DNA of 64,000 bases. Origin: Chitinophaga filiformis (GTDB taxonomy: Bacteria; Bacteroidota; Bacteroidia; Chitinophagales; Chitinophagaceae). Made by a program: the position numbers and the translations under genes. The DNA lies in NCBI RefSeq assembly GCF_021646545.1, contig NZ_JAKIRP010000001.1, forward strand, positions 558,001-622,000. Direction: 5' to 3'. Shown piece by piece: positions 55,538 through 64,000 of this stretch. Under the pieces are notes generated by a model, which was not told the origin of the DNA, ran no database searches, and saw nothing but the letters and a program-made list of their open reading frames with translations. The number at the start of each line of letters is the position of its first letter. The first letter of the stretch is position 1.

Positions 55538-57142
55538 TCAAAGCGCTTTAATGTCCATAAGCCGCTCTTCAAACTCTTCTTTTGGAATAATGGCTTTGTT
55601 TTTTATCTTGGTTTTATAAGTGTAAATAGTATTCACTGAATACTCAAGGATCTGGGCAATTTTTACATTGTCGCTGATACCTATCCTTATCAATGCGAAG
55701 ATCCGGAGGTCTGTGTTCAATAGTTCATTGTCTTTTAACCTGATCCGGTCTTCTTCTTTGAAAAATGAGTTAAAGACAGTTACAAAGTTGGGAAATATTT
55801 TCAGGAAGATGCGATCAAAATTTCTGAACAATTCATCCCGTTCTTCCTTGAGATCTATATTATTAACAAGGTACCTGACCTCGGCATATTTGTTATCGGT
55901 TAGTTTCTGATCGGCCAACTTTTTGAATTTCTTGATCTTATCCAGGTAAGATGAGTTGATCTGAAAACAATACCCTATATATTCCTCTTTGATTTTATTG
56001 GCTTCCATCAATTTATAATTGATCTCCTGCTGCAATGCATGGGCAGAAGTAATCACCTGCTGGGCAGCCTGAAGCTTTTTATACTGCCGGTAGATGATCA
56101 CAGATAACCAGATCAGCGCCAGTAACAGGAGGGTGGCGATAGCAGAATAAACAAACAGTAGCTTTTTCTGTGCCTCTACTGTATTGATCTTTTCTACTTC
56201 GATGATGGGAAGAATGGCGCTAACCTGTACTTTCCTTAAGCGGGCTCCATAGAAGGAGGCGTCGGCGACAGCATATTCTATGTACCGGGAGGCATGTTTG
56301 ACATCCCGCTCTTTAAAAAGCAGTTCCGCCAGAATGAACATGGCCGTAGTTTCTTTCGTACATGACATGATGTCGGCCATGGCGGCTTTTGTCATCATAA
56401 TAATAGCACTGTCCTGCTTACCTAACTTTATGTAGATATTTCCCAGTGAGGAAGTAGCTATCGCCTGCTGGTGCATGGTAATATCCTGATGGCTGACAGT
56501 TAGGGTATAATAGTATTTTGCACTATCCATCATCTGCTTCTTCTGATACATTAAACCGTAACTATAGTCATAATTGAAAGAATGCGGTTTATATAGCATC
56601 AGAGCAGAATCAATATAGATATTACCCTGGCGGGTATAGGCAGGCGCAAAGTAGTTATCACTGCTATAATCAGACATATCATAGTAATAACGTCCCTTTA
56701 ATGAGTAGTATTCCGCTCTGGCGCTATCAGGAAGGGAATTGACGTTTACAGTAAGCAGATAGTCGCCTGCCTCCCGGAACATGCCGGAAGAAAGCAAGAC
56801 GAACCCCAGCTTAACGCCGGCATAGTTGATCCGCTGCGAGTCATTCATTTCACGGGCCAGTTCCTGCAATTTACGGGCATAAGCAAAAGCTGAATCATAT
56901 TTGAAAACCTTGAACTGTTCATATAACTGCTGGCAGAGGTCGAACTGCTGCTGCAGGGACGAATGCCTTGCAGCAGTAAACGCCTGTCTCAAGGTGTTGA
57001 TCTGTTTCAGTTTCTCTGCATCATACGTATGTGCATTTTCAATTGTCAGATTCAGCCTGTCTAATAAACTATCCCGGGCAGAACCGGCGGATGACATTTT
57101 ACATGCAACTAGCAATAACAAACAAATAAGCTTAGATTTCAT
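55538..57142 (-). CDS. DUF6377-type TPR transmembrane regulator with C-terminal HTH
   Basis: The 534-residue protein has a signal/anchor at the N-terminus (LICLLLLVACKMSSAGSA), TPR-like helices (about 50-310), a membrane segment (LLFVYSAIATLLLLALIWLS) and a coiled coil. The C-terminal LuxR-like HTH is in SDNVKIAQILEYSVNTIYTY. This is the layout of Bacteroidota SusR-like/DUF6377 regulators, where a periplasmic TPR part senses a signal and a cytoplasmic HTH controls genes. It probably controls the downstream susCD pair. Its start codon overlaps the WYL gene's stop by 4 bp (ATGA), so it is translated from the same message. Confidence 0.85.
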   Translation of the reverse strand: MKSKLICLLLLVACKMSSAGSARDSLLDRLNLTIENAHTYDAEKLKQINTLRQAFTAARHSSLQQQFDLCQQLYEQFKVFKYDSAFAYARKLQELAREMNDSQRINYAGVKLGFVLLSSGMFREAGDYLLTVNVNSLPDSARAEYYSLKGRYYYDMSDYSSDNYFAPAYTRQGNIYIDSALMLYKPHSFNYDYSYGLMYQKKQMMDSAKYYYTLTVSHQDITMHQQAIATSSLGNIYIKLGKQDSAIIMMTKAAMADIMSCTKETTAMFILAELLFKERDVKHASRYIEYAVADASFYGARLRKVQVSAILPIIEVEKINTVEAQKKLLFVYSAIATLLLLALIWLSVIIYRQYKKLQAAQQVITSAHALQQEINYKLMEANKIKEEYIGYCFQINSSYLDKIKKFKKLADQKLTDNKYAEVRYLVNNIDLKEERDELFRNFDRIFLKIFPNFVTVFNSFFKEEDRIRLKDNELLNTDLRIFALIRIGISDNVKIAQILEYSVNTIYTYKTKIKNKAIIPKEEFEERLMDIKAL

Positions 57143-58179
57143 CTTTCAGTTTTGTGGAATAGTAGCGGATCGCTGTAATTAACAACCCCCTGCTGCATTT
57201 TTTTATGCATTCTGGCTGCCAGGCTTGCGGGAGACAAAACGATCATCCCATCTCCATACCCGAGGATCTCCCTTTCCAGCTCGAAATTCAGTTGGACCTT
57301 CAGGTTGATAATAATACCATCTTCCCGGGTTTCTAAAAGTTCCTGGGAGTGATGCATCGGTTTTGTAAGAATGTATGGCGCGTGTTCAAGACTGACAAGT
57401 ATTTTGACGTTCTGCGCCCGCAGATTCGTGGAAACTGTTACTCCCACCACATCTTTATAATAGCTGGCCGGCTCCACATCATCATTCTCAATATATAAAG
57501 TGTTATCCAATAGTTCCAGTTCCTGTATCCTGTCCAGGGCAAGGTGGGTGATTACCATGCCCTTCCCCTTTACGCCAACGGCAAACCACCTGTTCTTAAA
57601 CTCTTTCAGCCACCAGACATGGTATTCAAAAGTGTTGCCATTCTTCGCGCGGAAAGACTGATAACTGATCTTAACGGCTTTTCTCTGAATAATAGACTGA
57701 TATAACAGCTCCAGGTGTTCCAGCCCTTTCAGCCGCTCGTTCTTTTCAAATTCAATCACTGACCGTGTATTGTTGGAGGCTGCATACACATGATCCTCCA
57801 GTTTCTGCACTACTTCGTTCAGACTACTGAAATGAGAGAACCCTTTGAATTGCTTAAGCACCTCTACCGCCTCGTTCATCCGGCTAAGGTCAAGGTCATT
57901 CAAAGGAATTTTAGTAATACTATACTCAGGATCTTCGTACGTGTAATATTTCTTGTCCACAACAATGATCGGCGCACTATATCCCAGTTTGTCGCTCCGC
58001 ATGGCCTGCAGGTCCATCTGAATAGCACGCCGGCTGATCCCTTTTTCCACTCCTTCGTATTCGTACAATGCATCTCCCACTGCTTTAATAAGGTCCTGTA
58101 ATGTCCACTTCCGCAGACGGTTCCGGAGACAGGAGTCTATGGTTCTGTAACGGATAAGGGCATTCTTATTAACGGGCAT
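57139..58179 (-). CDS. WYL-domain transcriptional regulator
   Basis: The start at 58179 gives 346 residues (MPVNKNALIRYRTIDSCLRN). The open frame continues upstream to 58485 but there overlaps the RNA locus and has no family similarity. The N-terminal winged helix (TLQDLIKAVGDALYEYEG, ISRRAIQMDLQAMRS) is followed by a WYL domain (AVKISYQSFRAKNGNTFEYH, WWLKEFKNRWFAVGVKGKG) and a WCX-like C-terminus. WYL regulators bind nucleic-acid or nucleotide ligands and often control DNA-damage, RNA-damage and defence genes. It is divergent from the Y RNA-like and slipin genes, which are its likely targets, and is also coupled to the DUF6377 gene. Confidence 0.88.
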   Translation of the reverse strand: MPVNKNALIRYRTIDSCLRNRLRKWTLQDLIKAVGDALYEYEGVEKGISRRAIQMDLQAMRSDKLGYSAPIIVVDKKYYTYEDPEYSITKIPLNDLDLSRMNEAVEVLKQFKGFSHFSSLNEVVQKLEDHVYAASNNTRSVIEFEKNERLKGLEHLELLYQSIIQRKAVKISYQSFRAKNGNTFEYHVWWLKEFKNRWFAVGVKGKGMVITHLALDRIQELELLDNTLYIENDDVEPASYYKDVVGVTVSTNLRAQNVKILVSLEHAPYILTKPMHHSQELLETREDGIIINLKVQLNFELEREILGYGDGMIVLSPASLAARMHKKMQQGVVNYSDPLLFHKTER

Positions 58180-58326
58180 CAGGATAAATTTTTCAAAAAG
58201 TAAAAAAAATATTCTAATGCGCAAAAAAAGTGCGCACATGACTTCCACCTTTGTTTTGTCATCGTTGATGACACAGTTACAAAAGGCTGCGGCGGACCGG
58301 ATGAGGGTTTCTGAATGGCCCCGTAG

Positions 58327-58350
58327 TATTACCACGAATCGCTGGTAATA
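58327..58350 (+). other. Hairpin just upstream of the Y RNA-like element
   Basis: Stem TATTACC (58327-58333) / GGTAATA (58344-58350) with a 10-nt loop, directly abutting the outer stem of the tRNA-like RNA. It may be part of the same RNA. Confidence 0.55.
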
Positions 58351-58351
58351 T

Positions 58352-58480
58352 GCTGCTGTCGCAAGTGTTTGTTCCTGTGGGTTCGACTCCCATCCTCTGA
58401 AAAAGGATCGCTCAGGTAGAGCAATAGACACGGAACCCTTTAAAGGTTCCACCTTGGACTTTAAATCCAATTCCAGCAGC
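58352..58480 (+). ncRNA. Y RNA-like, circularly permuted tRNA mimic
   Basis: Hand folding gives an outer stem GCTGCTG (58352-58358) / CAGCAGC (58474-58480). A 9-bp helix (58365-58373 with 58423-58431, two G-U pairs) encloses, in order, a T arm (stem 58377-58381 / 58389-58393, loop TTCGACT, the canonical TTCRANY form), a short acceptor-like hairpin CCT-CTGAAAA-AGG (58394-58406) and a D arm GCTC-AGGTA-GAGC (58410-58422). In a tRNA the helix joining the T and D arms is the anticodon stem, so this is a tRNA with its acceptor ends closed and its chain opened at the anticodon. That matches the tRNA-like module of bacterial YrlA Y RNAs. Two more hairpins with CTTTAAA loops follow (58432-58450, 58454-58470). 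It cannot be a normal tRNA, because there is no acceptor 3' end. Confidence 0.75.
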
Positions 58481-58821
58481 GGCAAACTGCTTTAACAATT
58501 GTCGCCTCTAACTAAGACAGGGTAGCAGCCCGGTAGAAAAGCAAAAGGCCTTTCTCCATCTGCGACCGCCTTGAAAAAGGCAGATACCGCTGTTGAACGT
58601 GGAACTGATCTTTGGCCGGTGCCTGGTTTATCCCTATACCCGGTATCCTTGTACCATGTTAGCCCACCGGGCACCATGGCCGGGAACATGTTTCACCGAC
58701 AACAACTCAAGCCCGCTTCCGCAGGTAACAGACATGGTAGCTACCCTACAGACACACAACTCCTCTGGGAGTCTATATATAATTACAATTACTAATCCCT
58801 AAACCCGAAAACAACAAATTT

Positions 58822-59928
58822 ATGATATCACGTACAAAAGTAGCAGCATACACCAAGGCGTTAGTGTTCAAAAACAATCGCTACATAAAGACGCTGCAGG
58901 AAGGAACTCACTGGGTGAAGTCCGACGAACTGGTAATGCTGTTTGATATGACGAAGCCATTTCAGCCTTCCGTTGACCTGAATATACTATTACAGTACAC
59001 AGATCTGGCAGAAGCGCTGGATGTGATCACTGTAAAGCAGCAGGAAATTGGCCTGCTGTATGAGAATGGCTTGTTCAGGTCTGTATTGGCACCAGGGAAG
59101 CATGCCTACTGGAAGGGGATCGCTGCGTACAGCGTTACGCTGATAGACCTTTCAAAGTATGAGATCACCGAACAGGTGGAACGCGCCATTCTGGTAAGGC
59201 CGGAATTACAGCCTTATGTGAGGTTCTACACCATAGAATCCTACGAGAAGGGACTGCTGTATGTAGACGGAAAGTTCAATAAGGCACTGGAGCCAGGCAT
59301 ACACTATTTCTGGAAGAATCCAGTTGCACTGACAGTATACAAGACAGATATCCGCCAGTTACAGATGGAGATCAACGGACAGGAAATCCTGACAAAGGAC
59401 AAGGCCAATATCCGTATCAACTTCACTGTACGTTACAATGTAGTGGATATTTACAAGCTGGTTGAAAATAAGGAATATGATAAGCAACTGTATGTATTGC
59501 TGCAGCTGGCCCTGCGGGAACAGGTAGCAGTGTATACACTGGATGAACTACTGGACAAAAGAGACGAGATCTCTCCAATGGTCATGAATACAGTGACAGA
59601 AAAGGCGCTTCAATTGGGTGTACAGCTACTGGACTGCGGTATTCGCGATATCATATTGCCAGGTGATGTGAAGGAGATCATGAACCAGGTATTGATAGCT
59701 GAAAAGAAGGCGCAGGCCAACAGCATCATGCGAAGAGAAGAAACAGCAAGCACCCGTAGCCTGTTGAACACAGCGAAGCTCATGGAAGAAAATGAAATGC
59801 TGTTTAAGTTGAAGGAGATGGAATATGTTGAGAAGATAGCAGACAAGATCAGCAACATTACGCTAAGCGGTGGTGGAGATATCGTGGGGCAGCTAAAGCA
59901 AATATTCGTACCAGCAAAGAAGGGGTGA
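58822..59928 (+). CDS. Slipin (SPFH/band 7) family protein without membrane anchor
   Basis: The 368-residue protein has an SPFH domain over about residues 144-300 (PGIHYFWKNPVALTVYKTDI, KANIRINFTVRYNVVDIYKL, LLDCGIRDIILPGDVKEIMN). A helical tail follows (IAEKKAQANSIMRREETAST). No hydrophobic hairpin is present at the N-terminus; instead two extra copies of the SPFH-entry motif occur before the domain (near residues 13-32 and 77-96). Soluble slipins of this kind are known next to RtcB-type RNA repair genes, and the tRNA-like RNA immediately upstream fits that context. Its molecular role there is unknown. It is followed by a hairpin terminator. Confidence 0.88.
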   Translation: MISRTKVAAYTKALVFKNNRYIKTLQEGTHWVKSDELVMLFDMTKPFQPSVDLNILLQYTDLAEALDVITVKQQEIGLLYENGLFRSVLAPGKHAYWKGIAAYSVTLIDLSKYEITEQVERAILVRPELQPYVRFYTIESYEKGLLYVDGKFNKALEPGIHYFWKNPVALTVYKTDIRQLQMEINGQEILTKDKANIRINFTVRYNVVDIYKLVENKEYDKQLYVLLQLALREQVAVYTLDELLDKRDEISPMVMNTVTEKALQLGVQLLDCGIRDIILPGDVKEIMNQVLIAEKKAQANSIMRREETASTRSLLNTAKLMEENEMLFKLKEMEYVEKIADKISNITLSGGGDIVGQLKQIFVPAKKG

Positions 59929-61841: not shown

Positions 61842-62554
61842 TTATGCAGCAGTTCCGACCACTGAAGTGGTGCAGGCAATTCCCGGTTGCTGAATTCTAT
61901 ATGGATCACCCGACGCTTATGGTTATTGGTAGTTCTGCTGGAGGCATGCAGCAGTAAAGGACGCATGATCATCATTCCGCCTTTACGTACATTACATGAC
62001 ACTTCCGTTTCCTTAGACCAGTCGATCGTCTCAGGACGATAGATACCTTTGTTATGAGAACCGGGAATCACTCTTAATGCACCGTTATGTTCATCCGTAT
62101 CATCCAGGTGAATGCGGATGGTGAAATTATTTTCCAATACTGTTAACGGTGGCTGTACAGCATATTGCTGTTGCTTTACCGTCCAGGGGCCAAATCCGGG
62201 AACATCCGCTTTATCTTTTACTGAAATAGTAAGATCCTGGTGATAGGACACGAACCAGTTAGAATCCCCTGGTTTATCAAAATAGATCGATTTTACTGCC
62301 CGGTAACCTTCTCCGAAAAGCGCATTGATCACCGCATTCAATACTGGTGTAAAGATAGCAGGCGCTGCATCCGGCACCTCTTTGAGAAACTGCCTGATAG
62401 CAAACAAGTCTTTCGTTTTGCGGAAGGTTTCATTGGAACTGTCGGCCTGTTGAATCAACGCGATCAATGCGTCGACTTCATTATCAGTGAATATATTCTC
62501 TATTACTGTAAATCCATGCGCAGCTATTTCCTGCTGATGTGCACTTGCGTTCAT
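61838..62554 (-). CDS. PhyH-family Fe(II)/2-oxoglutarate dioxygenase
   Basis: The 238-residue protein belongs to the phytanoyl-CoA dioxygenase family. The iron ligands are the His and Asp of SYHQDLT and a distal His, probably the one in RPLLLHASSRT. Double-stranded beta-helix landmarks include IRIHLDDTDEHNGALRVIPG. The family hydroxylates small molecules, and its substrate here cannot be predicted. It overlaps the upstream nucleotidyltransferase gene by 4 bp (ATGA), so it is part of that operon. Confidence 0.88.
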   Translation of the reverse strand: MNASAHQQEIAAHGFTVIENIFTDNEVDALIALIQQADSSNETFRKTKDLFAIRQFLKEVPDAAPAIFTPVLNAVINALFGEGYRAVKSIYFDKPGDSNWFVSYHQDLTISVKDKADVPGFGPWTVKQQQYAVQPPLTVLENNFTIRIHLDDTDEHNGALRVIPGSHNKGIYRPETIDWSKETEVSCNVRKGGMMIMRPLLLHASSRTTNNHKRRVIHIEFSNRELPAPLQWSELLHN

Positions 62555-63627
62555 ATATCCTGTTTGTAAAACTGTTCCCTGATGCTTACGAGAATGGCTT
62601 CGGCTTTAGCCAGATCTGGTGTGTCCGGCAGACCGGAGCGCTCGTAAAGGTCGTCCATCTTCTCTAGTTTTTCATCCACCATTTTCAACAGGTCATCGTA
62701 TTCGAACGCCCCGCTTTTGATACTAAGCAAAAACTCCCTGTCTTTTCTTTGCACAATCACTTTTCGTTCGACAGCTATCTCTTCTGCCATACTTAACAGA
62801 CGGAAGGTATGCATCATGTTTTTCGCATCATAGTTCTTACCATGGGTCAGGGTATTCTGGTATCGGGTATCATTCCGTTTTTCCACCCATTCCCAGTATT
62901 CGAGATATTCCCGGCAATAAACAGAATAACCGTCTTTGTTGAAGTTCATAACTGCCAGGTGAGAGATCCCTGGGGGAATTGAGCTTAATTGTACATCATT
63001 GGCGGCTTCGCCGGATATGATGCCCTTGAGAAAAGTCTTATCAGTTATCTGGTGCTGATGAAACAACAGGTAAACGTCGCGGAAATGAGGCACCTGGGTC
63101 AGACCACAATCCTCCTGCGAAAACCCCTGGCTATCCAGCCATTGTTGCAGGGGAATGCTACCGTTGCCGGCAATAACGTAGCAGAAATCCAGTACCGATT
63201 TACGCTTTTCATCTAAGGGACGATGAATCTTTTTATTGAGTCCTCTGGCTTTCTTTATTTGTGAAGCGGCATAACCGGCAAAAGTGTCTTTACACAATTT
63301 CGACAGGAAGTCCTCCGGTTTTATCTGGTCCATCAGGCCATGACGAAACAATACACAATCGGGAGGCGTGCTTAAAAGTTCAATAATATTCGGATTATTC
63401 TTACTCAGCAGGTCTATAAATCTGCCTATTTCAAAATAGACTTCATCATTCGTGCTGTTTGAAATTTGCGGGGTATAGGTCAATCCATACAGCTCCCTGG
63501 GCGGCAACACAAAGATTCCCTTAATATCTGTATCAGACGTGGGGGAGTGCAATTGCTGCGCCCTGCTGCCGCTGATGCATTTTAACAGCAGGTGTCGGTT
63601 ACCGGATTGCAATTCTTCTAAAGTCAT
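62551..63627 (-). CDS. Predicted nucleotidyltransferase, DNA polymerase beta superfamily (COG3541-like)
   Basis: The 358-residue protein has the nucleotidyltransferase signature CISGSRAQQLHSPTSDTDIK, with the GS pair and the catalytic DxD near the N-terminus. The remainder is helical (SQIKKARGLNKKIH, NTLTHGKNYDAKNMMHTFRL). Such minimal nucleotidyltransferases have unknown RNA or protein targets. I recall members encoded near RtcB RNA ligases. It lies downstream of a second nucleotidyltransferase with a 4-bp ATGA overlap and is followed by the dioxygenase with the same type of overlap. Confidence 0.82.
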   Translation of the reverse strand: MTLEELQSGNRHLLLKCISGSRAQQLHSPTSDTDIKGIFVLPPRELYGLTYTPQISNSTNDEVYFEIGRFIDLLSKNNPNIIELLSTPPDCVLFRHGLMDQIKPEDFLSKLCKDTFAGYAASQIKKARGLNKKIHRPLDEKRKSVLDFCYVIAGNGSIPLQQWLDSQGFSQEDCGLTQVPHFRDVYLLFHQHQITDKTFLKGIISGEAANDVQLSSIPPGISHLAVMNFNKDGYSVYCREYLEYWEWVEKRNDTRYQNTLTHGKNYDAKNMMHTFRLLSMAEEIAVERKVIVQRKDREFLLSIKSGAFEYDDLLKMVDEKLEKMDDLYERSGLPDTPDLAKAEAILVSIREQFYKQDI

Positions 63628-64000
63628 TGGGTATTAATATATTTTCTGAACAGTGTATTCATTTCAGTCGTGTTATGTTGTACAGCTGGCAGCAATGATG
63701 CCTGTTCTTTACAATAAGCGATCGTCTCTTCAATCCAATGCTGCAGGACAGGTACGGGCGTGATCATTGTTTTCTCGTCCGATACTTTCTTGCGTTCCAG
63801 CAATTCATCAGTGGCCTCATTCCAGTCCTTATCGGCGATGAGCACTCTCAATTCATTAAATGTAATTGGAGGTACTGCCTTTTTCTCAATGATCCACAGA
63901 GCGGCCAATACCGGACGTAATGCGTAGAAGTATTTCTTGATCCTTACCTGCTCGCCCTGCAAATCATACTCGAAGGTATTCCTTGCCATGGAAATATAGT
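63624..64000 (-). CDS. Nucleotidyltransferase (YcgL/COG3541 type), C-terminal part; N-terminus beyond window
   Basis: The frame is open to the window edge on the minus strand. An ATG at 63989 exists, but the reading frame continues upstream of it and the protein begins inside a family motif (ARNTFEYDLQGEQVRIKKYF), so the ATG is probably internal. The sequence (KKYFYALRPVLAALWIIEKK, PPITFNELRVLI) matches the C-terminal half of YcgL-type predicted nucleotidyltransferases. The catalytic GS and DxD motifs should lie beyond base 64000. The 4-bp overlap with the next gene shows co-translation. Confidence 0.78.
   Translation of the reverse strand, partial: YISMARNTFEYDLQGEQVRIKKYFYALRPVLAALWIIEKKAVPPITFNELRVLIADKDWNEATDELLERKKVSDEKTMITPVPVLQHWIEETIAYCKEQASLLPAVQHNTTEMNTLFRKYINTQ

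Follow-up and report, generated by a model that had tools for sequence, protein, structure and literature searches.

Y RNAs of the YrlA class are small bacterial RNAs, about 100-150 nt long, whose two ends pair in a single terminal stem and which bind Ro60 and a nuclease; bacterial tRNA mimics of this type are tied to Ro60. Circularly permuted tRNA genes of algae and archaea carry the tRNA halves in exchanged order, and tmRNA (RF00023) combines a tRNA-like part and a pseudoknot in one large RNA. According to the passages of the paper available to us, the tRNA-like domain of Salmonella YrlA might, in the authors' proposal, inhibit an anticodon nuclease by competition, and the operon is activated by tRNA fragments (PMC7790460). 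The same passages state that YrlA is not a substrate of the nuclease studied (PMC7790460), which argues that bait action is not general. In Anabaena, loss of the repressor TrcR raises the expression of rtcB and a slipin gene, and the accessible part of that report links TrcR to the control of a tRNA (trn) operon and to translation stress (PMC10272220).

We analyzed a stretch of 64,000 nt from Chitinophaga filiformis (the window; contig NZ_JAKIRP010000001.1 of assembly GCF_021646545.1, listed contamination 6.22%). A gap of about 640 bases between a WYL regulator gene and a slipin gene contains a structured RNA of about 445 nt (about 58303-58747), and RlaP is encoded 2.6 kb past the slipin gene (Table 1). 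A sequence-only reading had taken positions 58352-58480 for a YrlA-like Y RNA, of a class that binds Ro60 or RNA-processing enzymes, and expected a transcript of about 130-160 nt. The T arm, the acceptor-like hairpin and the D arm that it named are all found in the sequence; the RNA itself extends beyond that element on both sides. Transcription of the slipin-leader RNA would start near 58260, downstream of the box CACCTTTG, which we take to resemble the -7 box of Bacteroidota promoters.

Table 1. Features of the RNA locus in the window (positions within the window)
Feature	Position	Strand	Basis or remark
WYL/WCX-domain transcription regulator, divergent	57139..58179	-	Pfam WYL 2.1e-8, WCX 1.5e-10
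Operator-like palindrome TGCGCA-N7-TGCGCA	58218..58236	.	also before Ro60 and RtcB in this genome
CACCTTTG, -7-box-like	58246..58253	+	similar boxes at similar spacing 3' of the palindrome elsewhere
P0 hairpin	58303..58322	+	covariation over 75 loci
P1 hairpin with AU bulge	58323..58356	+	helix 1 of alignment A2; folds alone
9-bp helix 58365-58373/58423-58431, in the anticodon-stem position	58365..58431	+	sequence; this copy only
T arm, permuted tRNA-like unit 1	58377..58393	+	helix 2 of alignment A5
Acceptor-like hairpin (border with T arm ambiguous by 2 nt)	58392..58408	+	helix 3 of A5
D arm, with 4 nt fewer in its loop than L033	58410..58422	+	helix 4 of A5
Hairpin GGAACC-CTTTAAA-GGTTCC, where unit 2 would lie	58432..58450	+	predicted fold
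Anticodon-arm-like hairpin TTGGA-CTTTAAA-TCCAA	58454..58470	+	predicted; 7-nt loop, U at position 33
H-type pseudoknot AGCAG/CTGCT with CGGCAA/TTGTCG	58475..58504	+	loop pairing score 13.5 in the window copy
3' domain, closing helix AGGGTAGC (58519-58526) / GCTACCCT (58740-58747)	58519..58747	+	helix score 21 in the window copy
GATACCG motif	58583..58589	+	GATA(A/C)CG enriched in the RNA set
Slipin (Band_7/SPFH) gene	58822..59928	+	Pfam 6.2e-33
RlaP, RNA-repair nucleotidyltransferase, two ORFs in swapped order	62551..63989	-	Pfam RlaP in both ORFs

The two RlaP ORFs (62551-63627 and 63624-63989, minus strand) overlap, and the upstream ORF corresponds to the second half of the Pfam profile and the downstream ORF to the first. 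The halves are swapped in the same order in L033, L034, L096, L097 and L099 (L numbers designate loci), and in L098 the N-half alone scores above the cut-off. Just past the window, a tRNA-Ile(TAT)/tRNA-Gln(TTG) pair is located near RlaP (G000:C11:622889-623041; L032 12890-13042); the same pair is present downstream in the C. filiformis locus L096.

Comparison with known RNA families placed the RNA near YrlA. In a permissive search, the Rfam model for YrlA (RF02553) matches 58342-58455 with 19.4 bits (E 2.4; gathering score 69), in agreement with the suspicion of the sequence-only reading that the RNA is divergent or unlisted. All 20 relatives scored, out of the 30 best genus matches, also match YrlA, with 32.1-48.5 bits and thus below 69; ten further loci searched at the gathering level gave tRNA matches only and no YrlA. 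An ordinary tRNA was rejected, as ARAGORN finds none in the window. A tmRNA was rejected as well: ARAGORN reports none in the window or in 24 + 49 further loci, and RF00023 matches only short T-arm pieces in two of 20 relatives, far below threshold. The slipin-leader RNA is described neither in Rfam 15 nor among the full-text literature matches listed, and the passages of PMC4012209 retrieved in a search for RtcB and slipin neighbours concern RtcR only. Because its YrlA likeness stays below threshold and the literature matches hold no description, we regard the RNA as a new one, undescribed as judged by Rfam 15 and these literature searches, in which the known YrlA-type mimicry is part of a larger, Ro60-independent molecule.

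To define its distribution, slipin homologues were searched in 59 genomes including that of the window. Close homologues (E <= 1e-90) are present in 23, and a stretch with the same permuted tRNA order is conserved 5' of them. Thirteen such stretches were aligned (alignment A2), and this alignment is the basis of the covariance model R1. A species-level search with a slipin profile (one genome per species) yielded at least 480 confirmed loci, the best 80 of which were used; their titles name Bacteroidota groups, with the exception of one titled Rickettsiales (L145). In 77 of these best 80 loci R1 detects the RNA immediately 5' of the slipin gene and on the same strand, the position that had been read from the window alone. 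The matches reach E <= 2e-12 in 75 loci and are weak in two (L136, L153). Loci L107 and L122 contain the slipin gene and, even without filters, no more of the RNA than a short T-loop piece, if that; the L108 sequence ends 259 nt 5' of its slipin gene. Over the 75 loci the R1 match starts 426-835 nt upstream of the slipin gene and ends 265-672 nt (median 410) upstream of the slipin match. In a phylum sample of 198 genomes a slipin (E <= 1e-60) was found in seven, including the one analyzed here, with an R1 match beside it in 7/7, which in one genome (G184) was seen only with filters switched off. R1 matches of about 1e-8 to 1e-5 are not specific (116 of the 198 genomes, many of them tRNA-like pieces), and only adjacency to the slipin gene or scores above 60 bits were used; in a scan of the genus, the 71 matching genomes among 79 include Ro60-side RNAs. 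A search of viral contigs found no slipin relatives. Two slipin genes contain tandemly repeated N-terminal segments in one long frame (L036 8221-9723; L051 8816-10231).

The permuted fold is established by comparison. In A2, 96.3% of 377 cells are paired and 15 of 29 pairs have changed on both sides; 0/500 shuffles reach either value, and pairing falls to 34-56% when the partners are slid. The P1 hairpin shows 96.9% paired cells and double changes in 4 of 10 pairs. RNAalifold, run unguided on 15 sequences including the window copy, returned the anticodon-position stem, a 5-nt variable part, the T stem, the acceptor, two linker bases and the D stem in tRNA spacing. Unit 1 was then aligned in 73 of the 75 loci (alignment A5; L131 and L174, whose first T loop is off pattern, were omitted), with 96.2% of cells paired (0/500 shuffles as good), double changes in 17 of 19 pairs (1/500) and at most 50% pairing when slid. 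The T arm, whose loops were chosen by pattern, is 100% paired, with double changes in three of its five pairs and the other two invariant; the acceptor is 95.3% paired with double changes in 5/5 pairs, and the D arm is 99.0% paired. Thus, the T-acceptor-D order proposed from the window is real, since the same helices covary in its relatives, where the compensatory changes suggested as a check were found. As with YrlA, the break in unit 1 lies at the anticodon loop.

Folding of single sequences gave a mixed picture. The stretch 58340-58500 folds better than its shuffles (z -2.3, 3/200 as good), as does the leader 58258-58760 (z -3.6, 0/100), whose best fold replaces the T arm by long-range pairs, and P1 folds alone (1/200 shuffles as good). 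The T-acceptor-D part by itself folds no better than shuffles (78/200 as good); the evidence for the module is therefore comparative. The stem of 7 bp that had been drawn to close the element (58352-58358/58474-58480) is not conserved: over 48 loci its best pairing is 11.0, compared to 11.1 for swapped partners. The closest relatives (L033, L096) are able to form this stem, the strands of which overlap P1 and the pseudoknot.

Besides its permuted tRNA-like units, of which there are one to three, the complete RNA contains two hairpins, an arm resembling an anticodon arm, a pseudoknot and a 3' domain. Its parts were counted in a set of 95 RNAs, made up of the 75 loci of the species-level search and 20 of the 23 loci of the 59-genome search (L049, L051 and L054 left out). 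Two T arms are present in 60 RNAs, one in 34 and three in 1; two genomes, both with one T arm, are counted twice in the set (L040/L164, L041/L170), which affects the T-arm, 7-nt-loop and motif counts. The P0 hairpin covaries over 75 loci (pairing 11.1 versus 8.3 with partners swapped, at most 9.0 in 100 swaps), and the motif GATA(A/C)CG occurs in 40/95 RNAs, compared to 4 when every RNA is shuffled once.

The window copy is a shortened and perhaps decaying member of this family. Compared to L033 it has two deletions, one of 15 nt that removes the variable part together with a strand of the anticodon-position stem and one of 4 nt in the D loop, and it scores 75 bits with R1, versus 127 and 125 in genomes G026 and G010. 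These deletions and the low score argue that its 9-bp helix is private to this copy, where it is perhaps compensatory. The helix that had been noted at the anticodon-stem place exists in the window, but it is not the conserved anticodon-position stem, which in relatives is TCTAT/ATAGA-like. The window copy has no second T arm, a hairpin being predicted at that place, and no U tract follows its 3' helix or those of its kin L096 and L097. A single T unit is found in 18 of the 20 RNAs from the 59-genome search, the window copy among them; together with the further tRNA features lost from this copy, this suggests that this lineage can do without the full mimic.

The genes around the RNA point to RNA repair. 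Among the best 80 loci, neighbour groups were RtcB (43, mostly after the slipin gene), WYL (37), RNase-H-like (17), RlaP (16), RNase T-like (13), TPR (13), AAA ATPase (11), RLIG1-like RNA ligase (6) and two groups without a name (7 and 6); these counts refer to ORFs of at least 110 aa in loci of about 15 kb or less, grouped by BLAST and each named from one representative. ARAGORN found tRNA genes in 34 of the 49 loci scanned out of the best 80. The slipin locus can hold many of them, with 20 in L106 (2405-9635) and 15 in L111 (1457-3023), and tRNA-Ile(TAT) recurs in such clusters.

In the 4.5 kb 5' of the RNA, 20 of 75 loci contain a palindrome, TGCGCA-N7-TGCGCA, which in 17 of these loci is at most about 650 nt away; in the other 55 its exact form is absent from this range. 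It also precedes nearby tRNA genes in L173, L169 and L139, so that tRNAs, RNA and slipin look like a single unit there. The 9.07-Mb genome contains five sites of the form TGCGCA-N6-8-TGCGCA, three of which precede the slipin-leader RNA, the Ro60 gene (contig C5) and one RtcB gene (C8); of the two RtcB genes only the C8 copy has the palindrome. Sites at the same three kinds of locus were found in genomes G007, G010 and G026, altogether 12/22 sites over the four genomes, and the reversed control pattern gave 0 sites in all four. Another palindrome of this type, with a similar box downstream, is located at G000:C9:78136-78154 (L188). No ORF of at least 30 aa starts just after it in that direction, and the site possibly marks an extra regulon member or a small RNA.

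These data delineate a candidate regulon of slipin and RtcB ligase, often RlaP, Ro60 with Y RNAs where present, and often extra tRNA genes. We consider it reasonably probable that the RNA represents an unlisted Bacteroidota family of large, structured RNAs, which forms the 5' leader of slipin, belongs to an RNA-repair regulon and serves as a tRNA decoy or scaffold under tRNA damage. The location before an RNA-repair gene and the common control site suggest that it helps to sense or survive such damage. Damage to tRNAs would lead a regulator reading the palindrome, probably the predicted WYL protein, to turn on a unit in which RNA and slipin would be transcribed together. As a decoy the RNA may occupy anticodon nucleases, and as a scaffold it may hold tRNA-handling and repair enzymes; RtcB and its partners would mend tRNAs, and the extra tRNA genes would replace those lost.

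The 3' part of the RNA allows another interpretation of its position. The pairing of the loop in an H-type pseudoknot has a mean score of 12.3 in 49 loci, versus 4.0 for swapped partners (maximum 5.8 of 200), in a test for which sites were picked by the first stem only, from a motif list made after viewing these loci. The score is at least 9 in 45/49 loci, with 44 different loops; the 46 of 95 loci without the motif were left out of this test and that of the 3' helix. An earlier blind search for the pseudoknot gave little excess over shuffles (24.6 versus 21.7), and a second one was set aside, as its sites had been chosen by the very pairing under test. The closing helix of the 3' domain scores 23.1, compared to 18.2 (sd 3.6) for swapped partners, in the same 49 loci. 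At the end of strong 3' helices a U tract is found in 24 of 31 loci, versus 5.2 expected, with the slipin match a median of 65 nt downstream. The RNA could thus be a cis-acting sensor or attenuator leader of slipin-rtcB, in which binding or cleavage of the tRNA-like parts would change the terminator-like 3' domain and so determine read-through into slipin. The nearly constant position 5' of slipin on the same strand and the existence of anticodon-like loops with U33 fit such a leader. However, the window copy and its two kin have the helix without the U tract, slipin could have its own promoter, and the alternative fold that would be needed is hypothetical, so that we hold attenuation to be possible and the less likely function of the RNA. 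A more specific form of it is more doubtful still: the RNA might be a gauge of tRNA damage, in which anticodon nucleases would cut the lineage-specific arms, the pseudoknot and terminator-like 3' domain would be unlatched, and slipin and RtcB would be expressed. If true, this would be a nuclease sensor made of tRNA mimics.

The original proposal, a Y RNA of the YrlA class associated with Ro60, has to be judged by the Ro60 locus of the same genome. The palindrome stands 5' of the Ro60 gene (G000:C5:27535-29984; L061, L180), and 3' of this gene lie three YrlA-like RNAs, none of which reaches the Rfam threshold. Such RNAs adjoin Ro60 in five of the six Ro60 loci scanned, this one included; L060 has none. 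Ro60 is encoded on contig C5 and the window lies on C11, so that the slipin-leader RNA is not a neighbour of Ro60, and a TROVE match (E <= 0.001) is absent from 13 of the 23 slipin genomes. The permuted module, the YrlA matches of all relatives scored and the palindrome common to both loci speak for a Y RNA, and the YrlA type of mimicry can be retained from the first proposal. The sub-threshold scores, the frequent absence of Ro60, the presence of separate YrlA-like RNAs beside it, the lack of a conserved closing stem and the embedding of the module in a larger conserved RNA speak against one, and we therefore regard a small Ro60-binding Y RNA as improbable.

In RNAs with a second T arm, unit 2 is opened before this arm and runs in the order T arm, acceptor hairpin, D arm and complete anticodon arm. 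It was aligned in 25 of 31 chosen loci (alignment A4; L162, L163, L165, L167, L171 and L172 left out). The acceptor is 82.4% and the D arm 89.6% paired, with many double changes; only these two figures are unbiased, since the T and anticodon arms were selected for pairing. The acceptor has 5-6 bp; the sixth pair is formed in 14/25 loci, and L161 alone seemed by eye capable of 7 bp. The anticodon arms vary. In the best stem with a 7-nt loop 3' of the last T arm, U is found at tRNA position 33 in 69 of 92 RNAs, although U33 was not asked for; because the choice of these stems was blind, the pseudoknot stem accounts for several of the 23 that lack U33, and a few of the U33 stems may be something other than the arm. 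For the window copy the automatic choice was the hairpin 58432-58450 and not 58454-58470. Among the 69 U33 stems, position 32 is C in 53 and position 37 is A or G in 59, and 26 different triplets occur (GAA 13, GUU 7, GUA 5 and 23 others).

A circularly permuted tRNA gene, matured by end joining with RtcB and trimming, would explain the permuted but otherwise complete set of arms in unit 2, and a ligase gene is near in 43 of the best 80 loci. It is nevertheless very unlikely: the acceptor of unit 2 has only 5-6 bp, the anticodon loop of unit 1 is opened, anticodons vary freely among relatives, and unit 2 is missing from most Chitinophaga-type RNAs examined. A working permuted tRNA was rejected for its short acceptor and variable anticodons. 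Functionless remnants of tRNA genes that close a tRNA array, a reading to which the tRNA genes near many loci, the weak matches of tandem-tRNA junctions to the models and the deletions in the window copy might lead, can practically be dismissed for the family, as plain decay would not preserve compensatory changes in a permuted pairing over 73 loci, and the covarying pseudoknot and 3' helix are no tRNA parts.

The RNA keeps the elbow signals of tRNA (the T loop and the GG of the D loop) and a tRNA-type anticodon loop that varies, together with a closed and shortened acceptor. Elbow signals and anticodon loops without a usable acceptor are better explained by a decoy or scaffold than by a tRNA, which is the function we favour.

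Taken together, many Bacteroidota have mimicry of the YrlA type that does not require Ro60, often with two mimics in one large RNA and with anticodon-type loops displayed. A possible origin of such permuted mimics is the boundary between two adjacent tRNA genes. The use of one palindrome type for the slipin-leader RNA, Ro60, Y RNAs and RtcB defines a concrete candidate regulon, and the RNA offers a tractable system for asking what RtcB, slipins and Y RNAs do jointly when tRNAs are cut.

Compared to the described systems, the RNA is closest to YrlA (RF02553), with which it shares the T arm, the closed acceptor hairpin, two linker bases, the D arm and a helix at the anticodon position, that is, a tRNA permuted at the anticodon loop. 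The family as a whole shows this T-acceptor-D module inside the anticodon-position helix, and in the window copy a different helix encloses it. In contrast to YrlA, the slipin-leader RNA often has two units, adds P0, P1, the pseudoknot and the 3' domain, lies beside slipin instead of Ro60 and places the module inside a larger conserved structure. From permuted tRNA genes it differs in its short acceptor, in its inconstant anticodon and in showing no sign of maturation. The trn operon and the rtcB/slipin regulon of Anabaena show independently that a comparable set of genes can be controlled jointly, by another regulator type and in another phylum; the terms 'permuted' and 'tRNA-like' occur 0 times in the text of that report as available to us (PMC10272220). 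The Salmonella rsr-yrlBA-rtcBA operon likewise joins a tRNA-mimic RNA to RtcB under regulated expression (PMC7790460). According to the accessible passages, its activator is the sigma-54 protein RtcR (PMC7790460), whereas here a WYL-type regulator gene and a palindrome occur with slipin, RlaP and tRNA genes, and the parts are distributed over several loci that carry one palindrome type in the four genomes looked at.
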